Positions 1 through 36,773 of a stretch of 36,924 nt of DNA are shown one piece after another. The position numbers and the translations under genes are program-made. The DNA lies in the IMG/VR virus record IMGVR_UViG_3300021375_000081, positions 1 to 36,924 of that record. One strand, given 5' to 3'. Positions within the stretch are counted from its first letter, which is position 1, and each line of letters begins with the position of its first letter. Source of the stretch: a virus. The notes under the pieces were generated by a model. The model did no database searches. It saw nothing but the letters and a program-made list of their open reading frames with translations, and had not been told where the DNA came from.

Positions 1-222
1 ATCGTTGGAAACATGGGGTCAGAACTTAGATTTGACTATTCCGTCATTGGAGATGCAGTCAACCTCGGTGCTAGACTCGAGAGCCAAACAAGAAATTATG
101 ATGGGGTGGACGTGTTGTTGGGACAAGAAACATATCTCCAGTGTCCAAACAGAACATTCACAAAAGTTGATTCAATTACAGTTAAAGGAAAGACCGAACC
201 AGTTGTCGTTTACACTATCTGA
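1..222 (+). CDS. Class III adenylate/guanylate cyclase, C-terminal part (cut by window edge)
   Basis: This is the end of a class III nucleotide cyclase catalytic domain, which makes cAMP (or cGMP) from ATP (or GTP). The reading frame is open from base 1, and about 73 residues are visible. They include VGNMGS, then DYSVIGDAVNLGARLE, the hallmark segment carrying the transition-state Asn and Arg (VN..AR), and an end of the form VKGKTEPVVVYTI, which is how the domain normally finishes. The position that is Asp in mammalian adenylyl cyclases is Ser here, as in many bacterial (IIIb-like) enzymes. The metal-binding part and any sensor domain lie outside the window. A cyclase is unusual in a T4-like phage. 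The family call is firm. Substrate and regulation are unknown. Confidence 0.88.
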   Translation: MVGNMGSELRFDYSVIGDAVNLGARLESQTRNYDGVDVLLGQETYLQCPNRTFTKVDSITVKGKTEPVVVYTI

Positions 223-529
223 AAAGGAACCTAGTAGTCTTCATTACACTGCATTCATAACACTTCAACTTGCAGATATCTATACCACATATCGTGGTCT
301 CAAATATGATTGTGTCGAAGAACTAAATCCTTTCCTTGGTAAATCTCCTTCAGTGAATGAAATGTTTTTATTTAAGACTGCAGTTCTTATGCCTGCTATA
401 AATTCAGATATTAAAAATGAGAGATTAACACCACAAGTATTCAATCAGATGAACTTCTTAATGACTATGGTAATTGCAAGTAATTATCATGTATTAAGTG
501 ATGCAAAAGAAAGATGCAGAAAATTATAA
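203..529 (+). CDS. Small membrane protein, DUF5658-like
   Basis: A reading frame in a different phase continues past the cyclase stop. Its first 60 codons simply overlap the cyclase, so the real gene starts later. No ATG lies in the unique part. TTG at 203, with AAGGA at 185-189 upstream, is the best start and gives 108 residues. The protein has hydrophobic stretches (AFITLQLADIYTTY, FLFKTAVLMPA, FLMTMVIASNYHVL), with the pattern ADIYTTYRG...ELNPFLG...FKTAV. That resembles short bacterial and phage membrane proteins of the DUF5658 type. It overlaps the cyclase end by about 20 bases, so the two are probably co-translated. No function is known. The start is uncertain. Confidence 0.6.
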   Translation: MSFTLSEKEPSSLHYTAFITLQLADIYTTYRGLKYDCVEELNPFLGKSPSVNEMFLFKTAVLMPAINSDIKNERLTPQVFNQMNFLMTMVIASNYHVLSDAKERCRKL

Positions 530-586: not shown

Positions 587-747
587 CCATTGTTAGAGAA
601 CTTCAAAAGAGCTCGGATTTGGAACTTGGATTGGCCAACGGCGACATCAAGTGACCCCATTTCTTCAAAAGAGCTCGGTTCTCGAACATTAATGCAATGC
701 TCATTAGAGGTTGCACATTATAAACTTGCTTAATAAAGGAGAAAACT
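587..747 (+). other. Untranslated leader or candidate small RNA region
   Basis: About 160 bases without a convincing reading frame lie between the promoters and the Hsp20 gene. The region holds two copies of a 16-base repeat and a short inverted pair, TGCAA (693-697) and TTGCA (711-715). It looks richer in G and C than the surroundings. It ends in a strong ribosome binding site (AAAGGAG) before the ATG at 748. It could be a structured 5' leader or a small RNA. Nothing else is identifiable. Confidence 0.35.
601..678 (+). repeat. 16-bp direct repeat pair
   Basis: CTTCAAAAGAGCTCGG occurs at 601-616 and again, identically, at 663-678, spaced 62 bp start to start. Both copies are inside the untranslated leader of hsp20. 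Confidence 0.8.
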
Positions 748-1161
748 ATGACTATCTATGACGATGTCTTCGGGAAATCATTCCCATTCGCAATCGGGTT
801 CGACAGAACTCTACAACTATTAGAACGTGCAGATACACATTCTAGTTCAAACTATCCACCCTACAACATTGTAAAAATCGATGAGGAAAATTTCCAAATT
901 GAAATGGCAGTAGCAGGGTTCGATAAGAAAGAGGTTTCTATCTCTAAAGAGAAAGAGAAACTAATTATCGAGGGAGAACAAGATACTGAATCAAAAGATT
1001 ATGTCCACCAAGGACTTGCTTCACGTTCATTCAAAAGGTCATTCACACTTGCAGACGATATAATCGTTAAAGGTGCAGATATGAAGAATGGTATTTTGGT
1101 TGTTAGTTTAGAGAGAATTGTGCCTGAGGAAGACAAACCTCAAGAAATCAAAATTTCTTAA
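748..1161 (+). CDS. hsp20: Hsp20-family small heat shock protein
   Basis: An ATP-independent holdase chaperone of 137 residues, similar in length to IbpA. The alpha-crystallin domain runs from about residue 33 (YPPYNIVKIDEENFQIEMAV) to residue 128, with the typical VAGFDKKEVSI and ENKL-like strands and a late GILVVSLER strand. The N-terminus (MTIYDDVFGKSFPFAIGFDR) is also IbpA-like. A strong AAAGGAG sits before the ATG. Hsp20 genes are common in T4-like marine phages, where they are thought to protect proteins or aid assembly during infection. It stands alone between two promoter regions. Confidence 0.95.
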   Translation: MTIYDDVFGKSFPFAIGFDRTLQLLERADTHSSSNYPPYNIVKIDEENFQIEMAVAGFDKKEVSISKEKEKLIIEGEQDTESKDYVHQGLASRSFKRSFTLADDIIVKGADMKNGILVVSLERIVPEEDKPQEIKIS

Positions 1162-4403: not shown

Positions 4404-6920
4404 ATGGATTTCTATACTAACGTTTGCAGAACACGTGACAAAATACTTGTCAAAGGATACAAGAACGGAAAACAACAAAAACTATCCGTATCTTACAGAC
4501 CCAATCATTATATCCCTTCTAAGAAGGGAGACACACCATTCAAATCATTAGACGGAAGGTCACTAGAAGCAGTGAACCTAAACTCTATGGGTGGTGCAAG
4601 AAAGTTCCGAGAGAACTATGCTGGAACTCATGGATTTGAAATCCATGGATATGACCGATATATCTATACATATATTGCAGATAAATTTCAAGGTGAGATA
4701 AACTGGAATCTAAAACACATTAAGATTGCAACACTTGATATTGAGTGTGAGTGTGAAGACGGATTCCCCGAACCAACTCTTGCAACTGAAAAGGTCAATG
4801 CAATTTCAATGAAACCACTTGGTAAAGATACACATGTTTTTGGTATCGGGCCTTGGGAACACAACAGAACAGACGTAGTCTATTACAATTGTTTAAATGA
4901 GATTGACCTTTTGACTAAGTTTGTTAAATACTGGAGACAAGAGTGGTTCGATATCATTACAGGTTGGAATGTAAACTCTTTTGATATTACCTATCTCTGT
5001 AATCGTATTGACAGAATACTAGGAGAAGGAGAACATAAGAAACTCTCACCATGGGGTCAATGTGATGTCAGAGAGTTCATGTCTACTTATGGTCAGAAAC
5101 AAATGATATTCAATCTATATGGTATCAATGTTCTTGACTATCTTGAGATATATCGTAAACATACATTCGTAAATCAAGAATCCTACAAACTAGAAAACAT
5201 TGCACAAGTAGAACTTGGAACTGGTAAACTAGATTATTCAGAGTATGGAAATCTACATACACTTTACAAACAAGACTATCCAAAGTTCTTGGAATACAAT
5301 GTCAAAGACGTTGTCCTTGTTGAACAACTAGAAGAAAAACTAGGACTATTGGAACTAACACTTGCAATGTCTTATAATGCAAAGTGTAATTATAACGACA
5401 CATTCGGAATGGTGAAGTATTGGGAAACCATAATCTACAATCACCTCAAAGACCAAAACATACAAACACCACCACAAAGACTGAAGAGTGGTAATGACAA
5501 GACACACCAAATCGTTGGTGCATATGTTAAAGACCCAATTGTCGGTGGACATGACTGGGTAGTGTCATTCGACTTGAACTCACTGTATCCACATATCATT
5601 ATGCAATACAATATCTCACCCGAGAAAATGATAAAGGGAAACAGACAAGACTTGACCATTGACAGAATGTTGAACAAAGAATGTGACTTATCATATGTTC
5701 ACCAACAGGGTCATGCAGTGTGTCCGAATGGTGTAATGTATTCTAAAAACAAACAAGGATTTCTTCCCGAACTTATGGAAAAACTCTATGACGAGAGAAA
5801 GGAGTGGAAGAAGAAAATGATTGGGTATCAACAAGAACGAGAAGTCTGTAAAGAAACCAAACGTAAGAAAGAACTTGATACACTTATCAAACGTGCATAC
5901 AACAATCAACAGGTTCGTAAGATTGCACTTAACTCTGCATATGGAGCTCTTGCAAACCAATACTTTGCATTCTTTTCTATTGACCTTGCAGAGTCAATCA
6001 CAACCAGTGGTCAGTTAATTATTAAGTGGTCAGAGAAAACTATCAACGAGTTCCTAAACAAAACACTTGGAACAGATAACGAAGACTATGTGATTGCAAT
6101 GGACACTGATTCGGTTTATATCACTATGGATAAACTGGTTAAGAAAGTCTTACCCGAAGAAACAGACAAGACCAAGATTGTGGATTTCCTAAACAAGTCA
6201 GAAGGTATGATTGAACAAGTTCTTGCACGTGGTTTTGACGACCTTGCAGAATATACTAATGCATTCCAACAGAAAATGCAAATGGGTCGTGAAGTAATTG
6301 CAGACAGAGGTATTTGGACTGCAAAGAAACGATACATTCTAAATGTTCATGACAATGAAGGTGTCAGACTTGCAGAACCCAAACTTAAAATGATGGGTAT
6401 TGAGACTGCAAAGTCTTCTACACCTAAATGGGTCAGAACCAAACTAACAGAAGCCTTAAAGGTGGTTATGAATGGAACTGAACAAGACCTATGGGAGTTC
6501 GTAGAGACTGCACGAAAGGAATTTAGAAACCTTCCACCCGAGGAAGTTGCATTTCCTAGAGGTGTCAAAAACCTTGTGACGTATTCAGACCCGACTCATA
6601 TCTATGGGAAAGGAACACCGATTCATGTTAGAGGTTCACTCTTACACAATCACTTACTGAAATCTAAAAATCTTGACTTAAGATATGAAATGATTAAGAA
6701 CTCAGATAAGATTCGTTTCTCATATCTTACAACACCAAATCCAATCAATGAGAATGTAATATCATTCTCAAGTTCTCTACCAAGAGAGTTGGACTTGCAT
6801 AGATTTATTGACTATGATATGCAGTTCGAGAAAGCATTTAATGAACCACTAAAACACATTGTGAACTTAATTAACTGGAATGTAGAACCAGTTGCAAGTT
6901 TAGATTCCTTTTTTGGATAA
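4404..6920 (+). CDS. 43: DNA polymerase, family B (T4 gp43)
   Basis: The replicative polymerase with 3'-5' proofreading, 838 residues (T4 gp43 is 898). Exonuclease motifs are TLDIECE (Asp about 112), TGWNVNSFD and YNVKDVVL. Polymerase motifs are A FDLNSLYP (Asp about 390), B KIALNSAYG (about 505) and C AMDTDSVY (Asp about 567). KKRY and GIETAKSSTPKW also fit the family. All catalytic residues are present and the gene is intact. The tail VASLDSFFG corresponds to the clamp-binding end of T4 gp43. There is no Shine-Dalgarno sequence; the ATG coincides with the predicted transcription start. The stop codon is inside the late-promoter-like box for the next gene. Confidence 0.98.
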   Translation: MDFYTNVCRTRDKILVKGYKNGKQQKLSVSYRPNHYIPSKKGDTPFKSLDGRSLEAVNLNSMGGARKFRENYAGTHGFEIHGYDRYIYTYIADKFQGEINWNLKHIKIATLDIECECEDGFPEPTLATEKVNAISMKPLGKDTHVFGIGPWEHNRTDVVYYNCLNEIDLLTKFVKYWRQEWFDIITGWNVNSFDITYLCNRIDRILGEGEHKKLSPWGQCDVREFMSTYGQKQMIFNLYGINVLDYLEIYRKHTFVNQESYKLENIAQVELGTGKLDYSEYGNLHTLYKQDYPKFLEYNVKDVVLVEQLEEKLGLLELTLAMSYNAKCNYNDTFGMVKYWETIIYNHLKDQNIQTPPQRLKSGNDKTHQIVGAYVKDPIVGGHDWVVSFDLNSLYPHIIMQYNISPEKMIKGNRQDLTIDRMLNKECDLSYVHQQGHAVCPNGVMYSKNKQGFLPELMEKLYDERKEWKKKMIGYQQEREVCKETKRKKELDTLIKRAYNNQQVRKIALNSAYGALANQYFAFFSIDLAESITTSGQLIIKWSEKTINEFLNKTLGTDNEDYVIAMDTDSVYITMDKLVKKVLPEETDKTKIVDFLNKSEGMIEQVLARGFDDLAEYTNAFQQKMQMGREVIADRGIWTAKKRYILNVHDNEGVRLAEPKLKMMGIETAKSSTPKWVRTKLTEALKVVMNGTEQDLWEFVETARKEFRNLPPEEVAFPRGVKNLVTYSDPTHIYGKGTPIHVRGSLLHNHLLKSKNLDLRYEMIKNSDKIRFSYLTTPNPINENVISFSSSLPRELDLHRFIDYDMQFEKAFNEPLKHIVNLINWNVEPVASLDSFFG

Positions 6921-10481: not shown

Positions 10482-10658
10482 ATGAAGAAGGTGATAAAAA
10501 GTTCAGAGGTTATATCAAAAATAACCGAAAAAATTGAACTCAAGAAACAATTGAGAGATGCACGTGTGTCTAAAGATTCTAAAGAAATTGATAAAATAAA
10601 CAAAAAAATATCAAAAATAGAATCAAAATTGTCTTCCTCACCACTTGCAAAATCCTAA
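10482..10658 (+). CDS. Small coiled-coil protein
   Basis: 58 residues, strongly basic and helical (SKITEKIELKKQLRDARVSK and KEIDKINKKISKIESKL form heptad-like repeats). There is no ribosome binding site. The ATG is about 4 bases after the predicted transcription start, as for several other genes here. No family recognised. Confidence 0.55.
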   Translation: MKKVIKSSEVISKITEKIELKKQLRDARVSKDSKEIDKINKKISKIESKLSSSPLAKS

Positions 10659-10673
10659 ATAATAACATATAAT
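10645..10673 (+). promoter_or_regulatory. Sigma70-like promoter, with adjacent late box
   Basis: TTGCAA (10645-10650), 17 bp, perfect TATAAT (10668-10673). CCTAAATA (10654-10661), a late-type box, lies in the spacer and contains the stop codon of the small coiled-coil gene. Serves the gene at 10703. Confidence 0.5.
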
Positions 10674-10702
10674 ACTTTCAGAAAGTAAATCACGGAGAAT
10701 TT

Positions 10703-11140
10703 ATGTCAAGAGAAACAGCGAGAACAGATTTAGTATCTAAAATTGCAGACTTAACTAGTAATAAGAATTGGTTAAAGGGTGTAAGTCAAGAATATCAAGT
10801 CACTAATCAACCTAACGGAACAGACCATACTGCACGTAGTAGTAAATCTGCATGGACAGGTGCTGGACTTGTTGGTTGGTTAACTGCATGGAAGACTGCA
10901 AATTCTTCAATAACTGCAGATGCATCTTGGAATCCAGCAGACTTTGACGGAAGTAATTGGACACATGACGATTGGCAACAATTTTATTTCCAAGAACATG
11001 CAAAAGGTATGTCAAATAAAACAGATTCAGACAAAGCTATTACAGATATAGATGCTGAATTAGCTGCATATCAATCAGACTTAGACGATATCGACGCAGG
11101 AATAGCTGCTGGTGATATTGACCAAGTTGACCCAAGTTAA
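10703..11140 (+). CDS. Hypothetical protein, probably a virion component
   Basis: 145 residues with a good ribosome binding site (CGGAGAA). The middle is rich in Trp, Ser and Thr (AWTGAGLVGWLTAWKTANSS, FDGSNWTHDDWQQFYFQE), and the C-terminal third is an acidic helix (ITDIDAELAAYQSDLDDIDA). No enzyme motif. Its position at the head of the block of prohead-like proteins suggests a structural role, but I do not recognise it. Confidence 0.55.
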   Translation: MSRETARTDLVSKIADLTSNKNWLKGVSQEYQVTNQPNGTDHTARSSKSAWTGAGLVGWLTAWKTANSSITADASWNPADFDGSNWTHDDWQQFYFQEHAKGMSNKTDSDKAITDIDAELAAYQSDLDDIDAGIAAGDIDQVDPS

Positions 11141-36602: not shown

Positions 36603-36678
36603 GGGGCTGTAGCTCAGTTGGGAGAGCACCTGCTTTGCAAGCAGGGGGTCGTGGGTTCGATTCCCTCCAGCTCCACCA
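36603..36678 (+). tRNA. tRNA-Ala (anticodon UGC)
   Basis: Full cloverleaf: acceptor GGGGCTG pairs with CAGCTCC, D-arm AGCTCAGTTGGGAGAGC, anticodon arm CCTGC-TTTGCAA-GCAGG with TGC at 36636-36638, T-arm with GGTTCGATTCC, and an encoded CCA end. It follows the small basic protein gene by six bases. Confidence 0.96.
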
Positions 36679-36683
36679 GTAAA

Positions 36684-36773
36684 GGAAGATTGGCAGAGTG
36701 GTTGAATGCACTGGTCTTGAAAACCAGCAAAGGGGAAACTCTTTCGAAGGTTCGAATCCTTCATCTTCCGCCA
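36684..36773 (+). tRNA. tRNA-Ser (anticodon UGA)
   Basis: 90 bases including a long variable arm, as in serine tRNAs. Acceptor GGAAGAT pairs with ATCTTCC, anticodon stem CTGGT/ACCAG with loop CTTGAAA (anticodon TGA), T-loop GGTTCGAATCC and an encoded CCA end. It lies 5 bases after tRNA-Ala, so the two are probably made as one transcript. Confidence 0.95.

Follow-up and report, generated by a model that had tools for sequence, protein, structure and literature searches.

The end of a phage CHASE2-cyclase gene shares its DNA, in a second reading frame, with the gene for a probable partner protein predicted to be exported

In a lineage of phages that carry a class III nucleotide cyclase among curli genes, the 3′ end of the cyclase gene is also the first half of the gene for a DUF5658-like protein, read in the +1 frame. 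Codon patterns in relatives with and without the second gene indicate that this coding overlap is real. The cyclase is already known from phages; its neighbour and the overlap between the two genes are the new part.

Results

The window begins within the end of a class III cyclase gene

The stretch of DNA that we analysed (the window) is a contig of 36,924 bases that makes up a single virus record, with no longer version of the genome on record. Its first 222 bases (positions 1–222, + strand) hold, in open frame 1, the last 73 codons and the stop codon of a cyclase gene that is cut by the contig start; the translation is IVGNMGSELRFDYSVIGDAVNLGARLES...VKGKTEPVVVYTI-stop. This segment corresponds to residues 540–612 of the cyclase of a relative, L005, to which it is 96% identical, and across these 73 residues L001, L003 and L005 are 96–97% identical to the window. 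It matches positions 118–177 of the PF00211 profile (E 7e-4) with 19.6 bits, a score that falls just short of the cut-off (21.9) since the contig contains no more than the cyclase's end, and it matches phrog_35576 with an E of 2e-18. The N-x3-R transition-state pair is intact in the sequence (61–75, + strand; in L005 numbering, N560 at 61–63 and R564 at 73–75). A Ser codon at 40–42 (+ strand) aligns in our family table with S553, which we take, from what is known of class III cyclases, to be the second adenine-selecting position. We conclude from these matches and residues that positions 1–222 are the end of a genuine class III nucleotide cyclase, in agreement with a sequence-only reading of the window that had seen such an end in a T4-like phage. 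Scanning IMG/VR with this segment confirmed at least 595 relatives.

The metal-binding aspartates of the window's own cyclase lie to the left of the contig edge, as does its CHASE2 domain, and were read in relatives only. Intact full-length frames of 611–634 amino acids are found there, including in the close relatives L003, L005 and L008, and those 96–97% identical to the window over its cyclase end have an architecture in which a periplasmic CHASE2 sensor and membrane segments precede the cyclase domain. Specifically, the 612-residue L005 protein matches CHASE2 (PF05226) at residues 15–327 (E 1.6e-29) and positions 7–176 of the 183 in PF00211 at residues 427–606 (E 9e-16), and the top matches among solved structures are class III cyclase domains, including adenylate cyclase 2w01 and 3r5g. 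Residues D435, K479, D483, S553, N560 and R564 are conserved in nearly all phage relatives. Both metal aspartates (D435 and D483) are present in every phage relative that covers them except L031, at D435, and the N560/R564 pair in every covered one except Melnitz, in which Ser replaces the Asn. S553 is present and K479 retained in the window's lineage, and a Ser at the former site presumably counts, like Thr, among the adenylate-type purine-selecting residues. The sequence-only reading had named an upstream pseudogene or lost metal-binding aspartates as grounds for doubting the enzyme; the relatives give no such grounds, the window itself not being readable in this part. The phage cyclase is therefore probably catalytically competent, to judge from its residues, and the identity of the selecting residues points to cAMP as its product.

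The one exception at D435 is from a single contig: L031 has Tyr at residue 435 and Ile in place of the Cys two residues on. No change at D435 was flagged in L033 or L037, which are closely related to it, and either loss or an assembly error is possible.

The cyclase gene and a DUF5658-like gene overlap in two frames

The DUF5658-like gene (PF18902) is an open frame at 2–529 (+ strand), truncated at its 5′ end by the contig start and lying +1 relative to the cyclase. Both frames are open over 2–222 (+ strand), which is about 73 of the about 96 overlapping codons that are expected from the starts in relatives. Our overlap set comprised 39 non-redundant cyclases of the window's lineage, among the matches listed; in these relatives about 96 codons at the end of the cyclase also encode, in the +1 frame, the start of the DUF5658-like protein. 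The sequence-only reading had placed the start of the neighbour inside the cyclase end, and the overlap is borne out, but in relatives the start lies deeper, about 23 codons to the left of the window edge.

Where the DUF5658-like gene is present, the cyclase frame shows strongly reduced synonymous diversity over L005 codons 542–597 (window 7–174, + strand). In the best run of 50 codons (542–591) it falls to 0.32 against a gene mean of 0.65 (n = 39). None of 2000 codon permutations was as low as 0.32, a figure that is not a true probability because the sequences are related by descent, so that the comparison with a control lineage is the stronger argument. In 62 control cyclases without the DUF5658-like gene, the matching region has a diversity of 0.69 against a gene mean of 0.68. 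The boundary of the constraint is sharp, with values of 0.55–1.03 at codons 528–541 and of at most 0.1 at codons 542–543. The +1 frame, moreover, contains stops in all 62 controls and is open in all 39 cyclases with the gene, whereas codons drawn at random, at the frequencies of the genes themselves, would keep it open at a rate of 0.26% per sequence. Individual codons follow the same rule: at L579, TTA or CTA occurs only before T (23 sequences) and TTG or CTG only before G (16 sequences), which is exactly what avoids TAG in the +1 frame, and at L561 and L565 TTA and CTA never occur in the 39, as against 24 of 54 and 52 of 62 controls. A literature search found no paper describing such an overlap.

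There is a second, weaker dip in synonymous diversity in the window's lineage, at L005 codons 271–375 (locus positions 5194–5508), with a value of 0.29 at codons 301–315. An antisense gene was considered at this place and rejected, since the frame concerned, open in L005, has stops in all but 12 of the 39 relatives; a search of these codons for a conserved alternative frame found none.

The DUF5658-like protein is predicted to be exported

In most of the 39 relatives the +1 frame reaches back to about cyclase codon 511–517, and 37 of them have an ATG at codon 511, 514 or 517, most often 517; a motif resembling a ribosome site accompanies 24 of these 37 ATGs. The N-terminal peptides so encoded, such as MKNYLLSICLLLMSVSALAQENVLSETW, have the form of Sec-type signal peptides, a call that we base on sequence features rather than on a dedicated predictor. 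The peak hydropathy of the signal stretch averages 2.40, compared with 1.08 under random recoding, and 55 of the 62 control cyclases have a stop within the matching stretch. The signal-peptide codons are free of synonymous constraint, as would be expected if only hydrophobicity matters. Taken together, these features indicate a DUF5658-like protein that is exported. The sequence-only reading had called the neighbour a membrane protein; what the relatives show is a signal peptide, and over 19 residues the mean Kyte–Doolittle hydropathy stays below 1.6 in all 37 mature proteins examined (highest, 1.54). The three helices that are confidently modelled may still allow the protein to associate with a membrane.

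Two other starts were considered. We at first favoured a TTG at window position 5 because of the sharp onset of constraint at codon 542 and because a TTG stands at codon 540 or 541 in 38 of the 39 relatives; it was dropped because the frame upstream encodes signal-type peptides from the ATG at codon 517, and we attribute the TTG pattern at codons 540/541 to a variable cleavage region. An ATGATG at codons 572–573 was ruled out because constraint begins 30 codons earlier.

The DUF5658-like gene adjoins the cyclase gene across viral loci

The C-terminal DUF5658-like domain (245–526, + strand) has, in alignments and an AF2 model, three predicted helices, conserved D, N, P and K residues and two Cys, with pLDDT mostly above 90. 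Matches to PF18902 are borderline against the cut-off of 25.2 bits (window, 25.4; L391, 25.9; L379, 29.1; L412, 31.5; L005, 20.6–22.9). A fold search with the model gave no match with E below 3, and we found no paper on DUF5658 in the literature searched and no DUF5658-like protein in isolate phages.

Using as query only the part of the protein outside the overlap, we obtained 282 viral relatives, of which the best 80 were used. In all 71 loci with enough DNA, from these best 80 of 282, the DUF5658-like gene adjoins a cyclase gene: the cyclase is directly upstream in 65, and in 6 it follows directly, with a short gap or a slight overlap between the two. These six, among which are two pairs of near-copies, amount to about four lineages; their proteins also begin with signal-type peptides and are without most of the segment that the overlap encodes. 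That the two genes stay adjacent even where their order has changed is a good argument that they function as a pair. The DUF5658-like protein is thus probably a partner of the cyclase, as the sequence-only reading had proposed when it suggested a search for homologous pairs in other phage genomes; the constant adjacency, the two gene orders and the overlapping frames support that proposal strongly. Near cellular cyclases and at loci of the HTVC008M type, the only DUF5658-like domain found was in L240, itself of the window's kind, and cyclases of the HTVC008M and Melnitz kinds are without this neighbour.

Downstream of the pair, window positions 596–753 are the 5′ leader region of a phage Hsp20 gene (748–1161). 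This leader contains two exact copies of TTCAAAAGAGCTCGG, at 602 and 664, an element present in 77 of 412 loci and often paired, 62 or about 40 bases apart. The copies fold together, the next hairpin shows compensatory changes, and the end of the leader resembles the ROSE_3 RNA thermometer (30 bits, below the cut-off of 43; E 1.5e-4). Possibly, then, the phage heat-shock gene is temperature-controlled.

The curli module and its bacterial relatives

In L003 and L005 the gene order is csgF-csgG-curlin-FecR-curlin-small TM-cyclase-DUF5658-Hsp20-Prx, and 3′ of the cyclase the window shares with them the DUF5658-like gene, then Hsp20 and peroxiredoxin. The upstream genes (csgF, csgG, curlin repeat and FecR), which lie off the contig in the window, are on the same strand as the cyclase in L003, L005, L008 and L010, and curli genes likewise surround the cyclases of HTVC008M, Melnitz and many others. 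An 87-residue protein with a single strong hydrophobic stretch and no family match is encoded in L005 (4121–4384) after the second curlin gene and before the cyclase.

The presence of a cyclase in a phage curli (type VIII secretion) module is established: an adenylate cyclase and FecR were reported in a pelagiphage curli cluster in 2022 (PMC9599517), and the genomes of HTVC008M and Melnitz are annotated with an adenylate cyclase. The sequence-only reading had called such a gene unexpected in a phage, which in view of these records it is not. Two other papers describe the curli genes, the word cyclase being absent from both (PMC7029224, PMC9004378). The isolate phages with the cyclase have SAR11 and OM43 bacteria as their hosts. 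The DNA polymerase of the window is at most 48% identical to those of isolates, the nearest being cyanophages. Near the right contig end the window has two adjacent tRNA genes (36603–36770).

A tree of 116 cyclases groups 36 phage proteins (support 96–100) with only two from the cellular collection, L083 and L084. L083, a Caulobacteraceae MAG, has among bacterial genes a curli operon with CsgF, CsgG, curlin, FecR and the CHASE2-cyclase; the closest cellular relative lies in this curli-FecR-cyclase operon, its branch being long and its exact place unsure. About 440 bases 3′ of its CHASE2-cyclase, at 10482–11072, is a PycTM gene (PF18967, E 9e-25). L084 (1–15697) is a contig binned as Rickettsiales that carries phage-like genes; a large repeat protein, a TolC-like protein, an ABC transporter part and an adaptor are encoded before its CHASE2-cyclase, so that type I secretion-like genes stand in place of curli. 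FecR-like genes occur in 16 of 80 cellular cyclase loci, and curli genes were detected in only one of the 16. A tblastn search of five other alphaproteobacterial curli loci, several kb on each side, found no FecR or CHASE2 cyclase, making the L083 operon exceptional in this sample. The phages probably acquired their sensor module from bacteria in one piece; to judge from the Caulobacteraceae operon, FecR and the cyclase seem to have arrived together with curli and not to have been added by phages.

Discussion

The domain make-up, the catalytic residues, the order of the module, the coding overlap, the signal-peptide features and the constant adjacency are read directly from the sequences, and from them we infer how the parts may work together. 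The CHASE2 adenylate cyclase would lie in the infected cell's inner membrane; from the periplasm, its CHASE2 domain would read the state of phage curli (type VIII) secretion by way of the exported FecR and DUF5658-like proteins, and this readout would change the output of cAMP in the cytoplasm. In the window's lineage, having the first half of the DUF5658-like gene inside the cyclase end would tie the production of the two proteins to each other. The proposal supposes an active enzyme with cAMP as its product, a DUF5658-like protein that touches CHASE2 and a signal that concerns curli export. Since CHASE2 and FecR are periplasmic sensing parts, an exported DUF5658-like protein fits the periplasmic side, and the pair would report envelope or curli status. 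As a whole, we hold this sensor-module explanation to be somewhat better than an even bet. Its most specific form, in which a regulator of the CHASE2-cyclase is encoded out of frame in the catalytic domain, is made together with the enzyme and is exported, and in which curli export is reported as cAMP, we put forward tentatively, as more likely than not to be wrong in some part.

Precedents for such sensing have been published: a FecR-CHASE2 operon of Burkholderia is tied to biofilm, the signals of the CHASE2 domain being described there as unknown (PMC5192318), and CHASE2 cyclases of S. meliloti respond through an outer-membrane protein (PMC13001267). A constant exported partner is a candidate regulator of a CHASE2 sensor. 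It provides a concrete handle, and the reason for which curli genes are carried by ocean phages becomes testable in a laboratory strain. The overlap itself is long, the DNA for a conserved enzyme domain also specifying, in another frame, a signal peptide and about 70 residues beyond it, and automatic annotation could easily overlook it or misplace its start.

Class III cyclases generally feed CRP-type regulators, and the enzyme might instead serve mainly to flood the host with cAMP for CRP-type regulation by the host, the curli genes being passengers. Rewiring of host transcription had been suggested in the sequence-only reading, along with the feeding or blocking of cyclic-nucleotide defence; both ideas are conjectural. 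We looked for a cNMP-binding receptor in ten phage records and found none, so the target of the signal would be the host's. We nonetheless regard this account as unlikely, because curli, FecR and cyclase are linked across divergent phages that vary in neighbours and gene order, as well as in one bacterial operon, and because a CHASE2 sensor implies a regulated output.

The synonymous constraint could also reflect an extended control element, in RNA or DNA, that serves the downstream gene, with the DUF5658-like protein starting near or after the cyclase stop. Constraint eases at codons 598–612 although the frame is still shared there, and the positions of start codons near the cyclase stop vary among relatives, both of which would suit such an element. 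It would leave unexplained the open +1 frame in every one of the 39 relatives, the stop-avoiding codon pairs and the signal-type peptides that this frame encodes behind an ATG and often a ribosome site; in L005, furthermore, the only ATG, GTG or TTG after the overlap falls inside the conserved domain. A control element in place of a second coding frame is accordingly improbable.

Equally improbable, in our judgement, is a Pycsar-like pair in which the neighbour is a membrane-damaging effector switched on by the cyclic nucleotide, to time lysis or to exclude other phages. Here, too, a cyclase adjoins a small partner, the cellular relative L083 has its PycTM gene after the cyclase, and the cyclases match PADLOC PycC models (E about 1e-24). 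Such PycC matches are expected from any class III cyclase domain, however, and the DUF5658-like protein neither matches any PADLOC model nor resembles PycTM; without clear transmembrane segments and with a signal peptide, it should face away from a product made in the cytoplasm. That the cyclase is a functionless passenger or a decaying gene, as the lost metal Asp of L031 and the missing catalytic Asn of Melnitz might suggest, is hardly credible given intact frames, a catalytic set retained in nearly all relatives and two frames constrained at once.

The sensor module that we favour has points of likeness to several known systems. The Rz1 gene of phage spanins is embedded out of frame within Rz. 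In Rz/Rz1, likewise, a phage gene for one envelope protein contains, in another frame, the gene for a second, exported one; the proteins and their function are unrelated to those of the window's pair, in which the outer gene is that of a signalling enzyme and the overlap takes in no more than the first half of the second gene. Pycsar (PycC with PycTM) likewise sets a cyclase gene beside a small partner gene; the window's pair differs in that the partner is unrelated to PycTM and apparently exported, the cyclase has a CHASE2 sensor and the genes are in phages. The CHASE2 cyclases of Alphaproteobacteria (S. meliloti CyaD1, CyaD2 and CyaK; PMC13001267) have the same periplasmic CHASE2, membrane segments and class III domain, whereas the window's cyclase is phage-borne, belongs to a curli module and takes part in a two-frame overlap. 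In the biofilm-tied Burkholderia operon (PMC5192318), an exported FecR-domain protein is similarly encoded beside a CHASE2 sensor, but the output is a histidine kinase, not a cyclase, and no curli genes are described in the operon. Closest of all is the curli cluster of pelagiphages such as HTVC008M and Melnitz, which has the same CHASE2-cyclase family and the common order CsgF, CsgG, curlin repeat, FecR, curlin repeat, adenylate cyclase; to this the window's lineage adds a small gene with a hydrophobic stretch before the cyclase and the overlapping DUF5658-like gene at its end.
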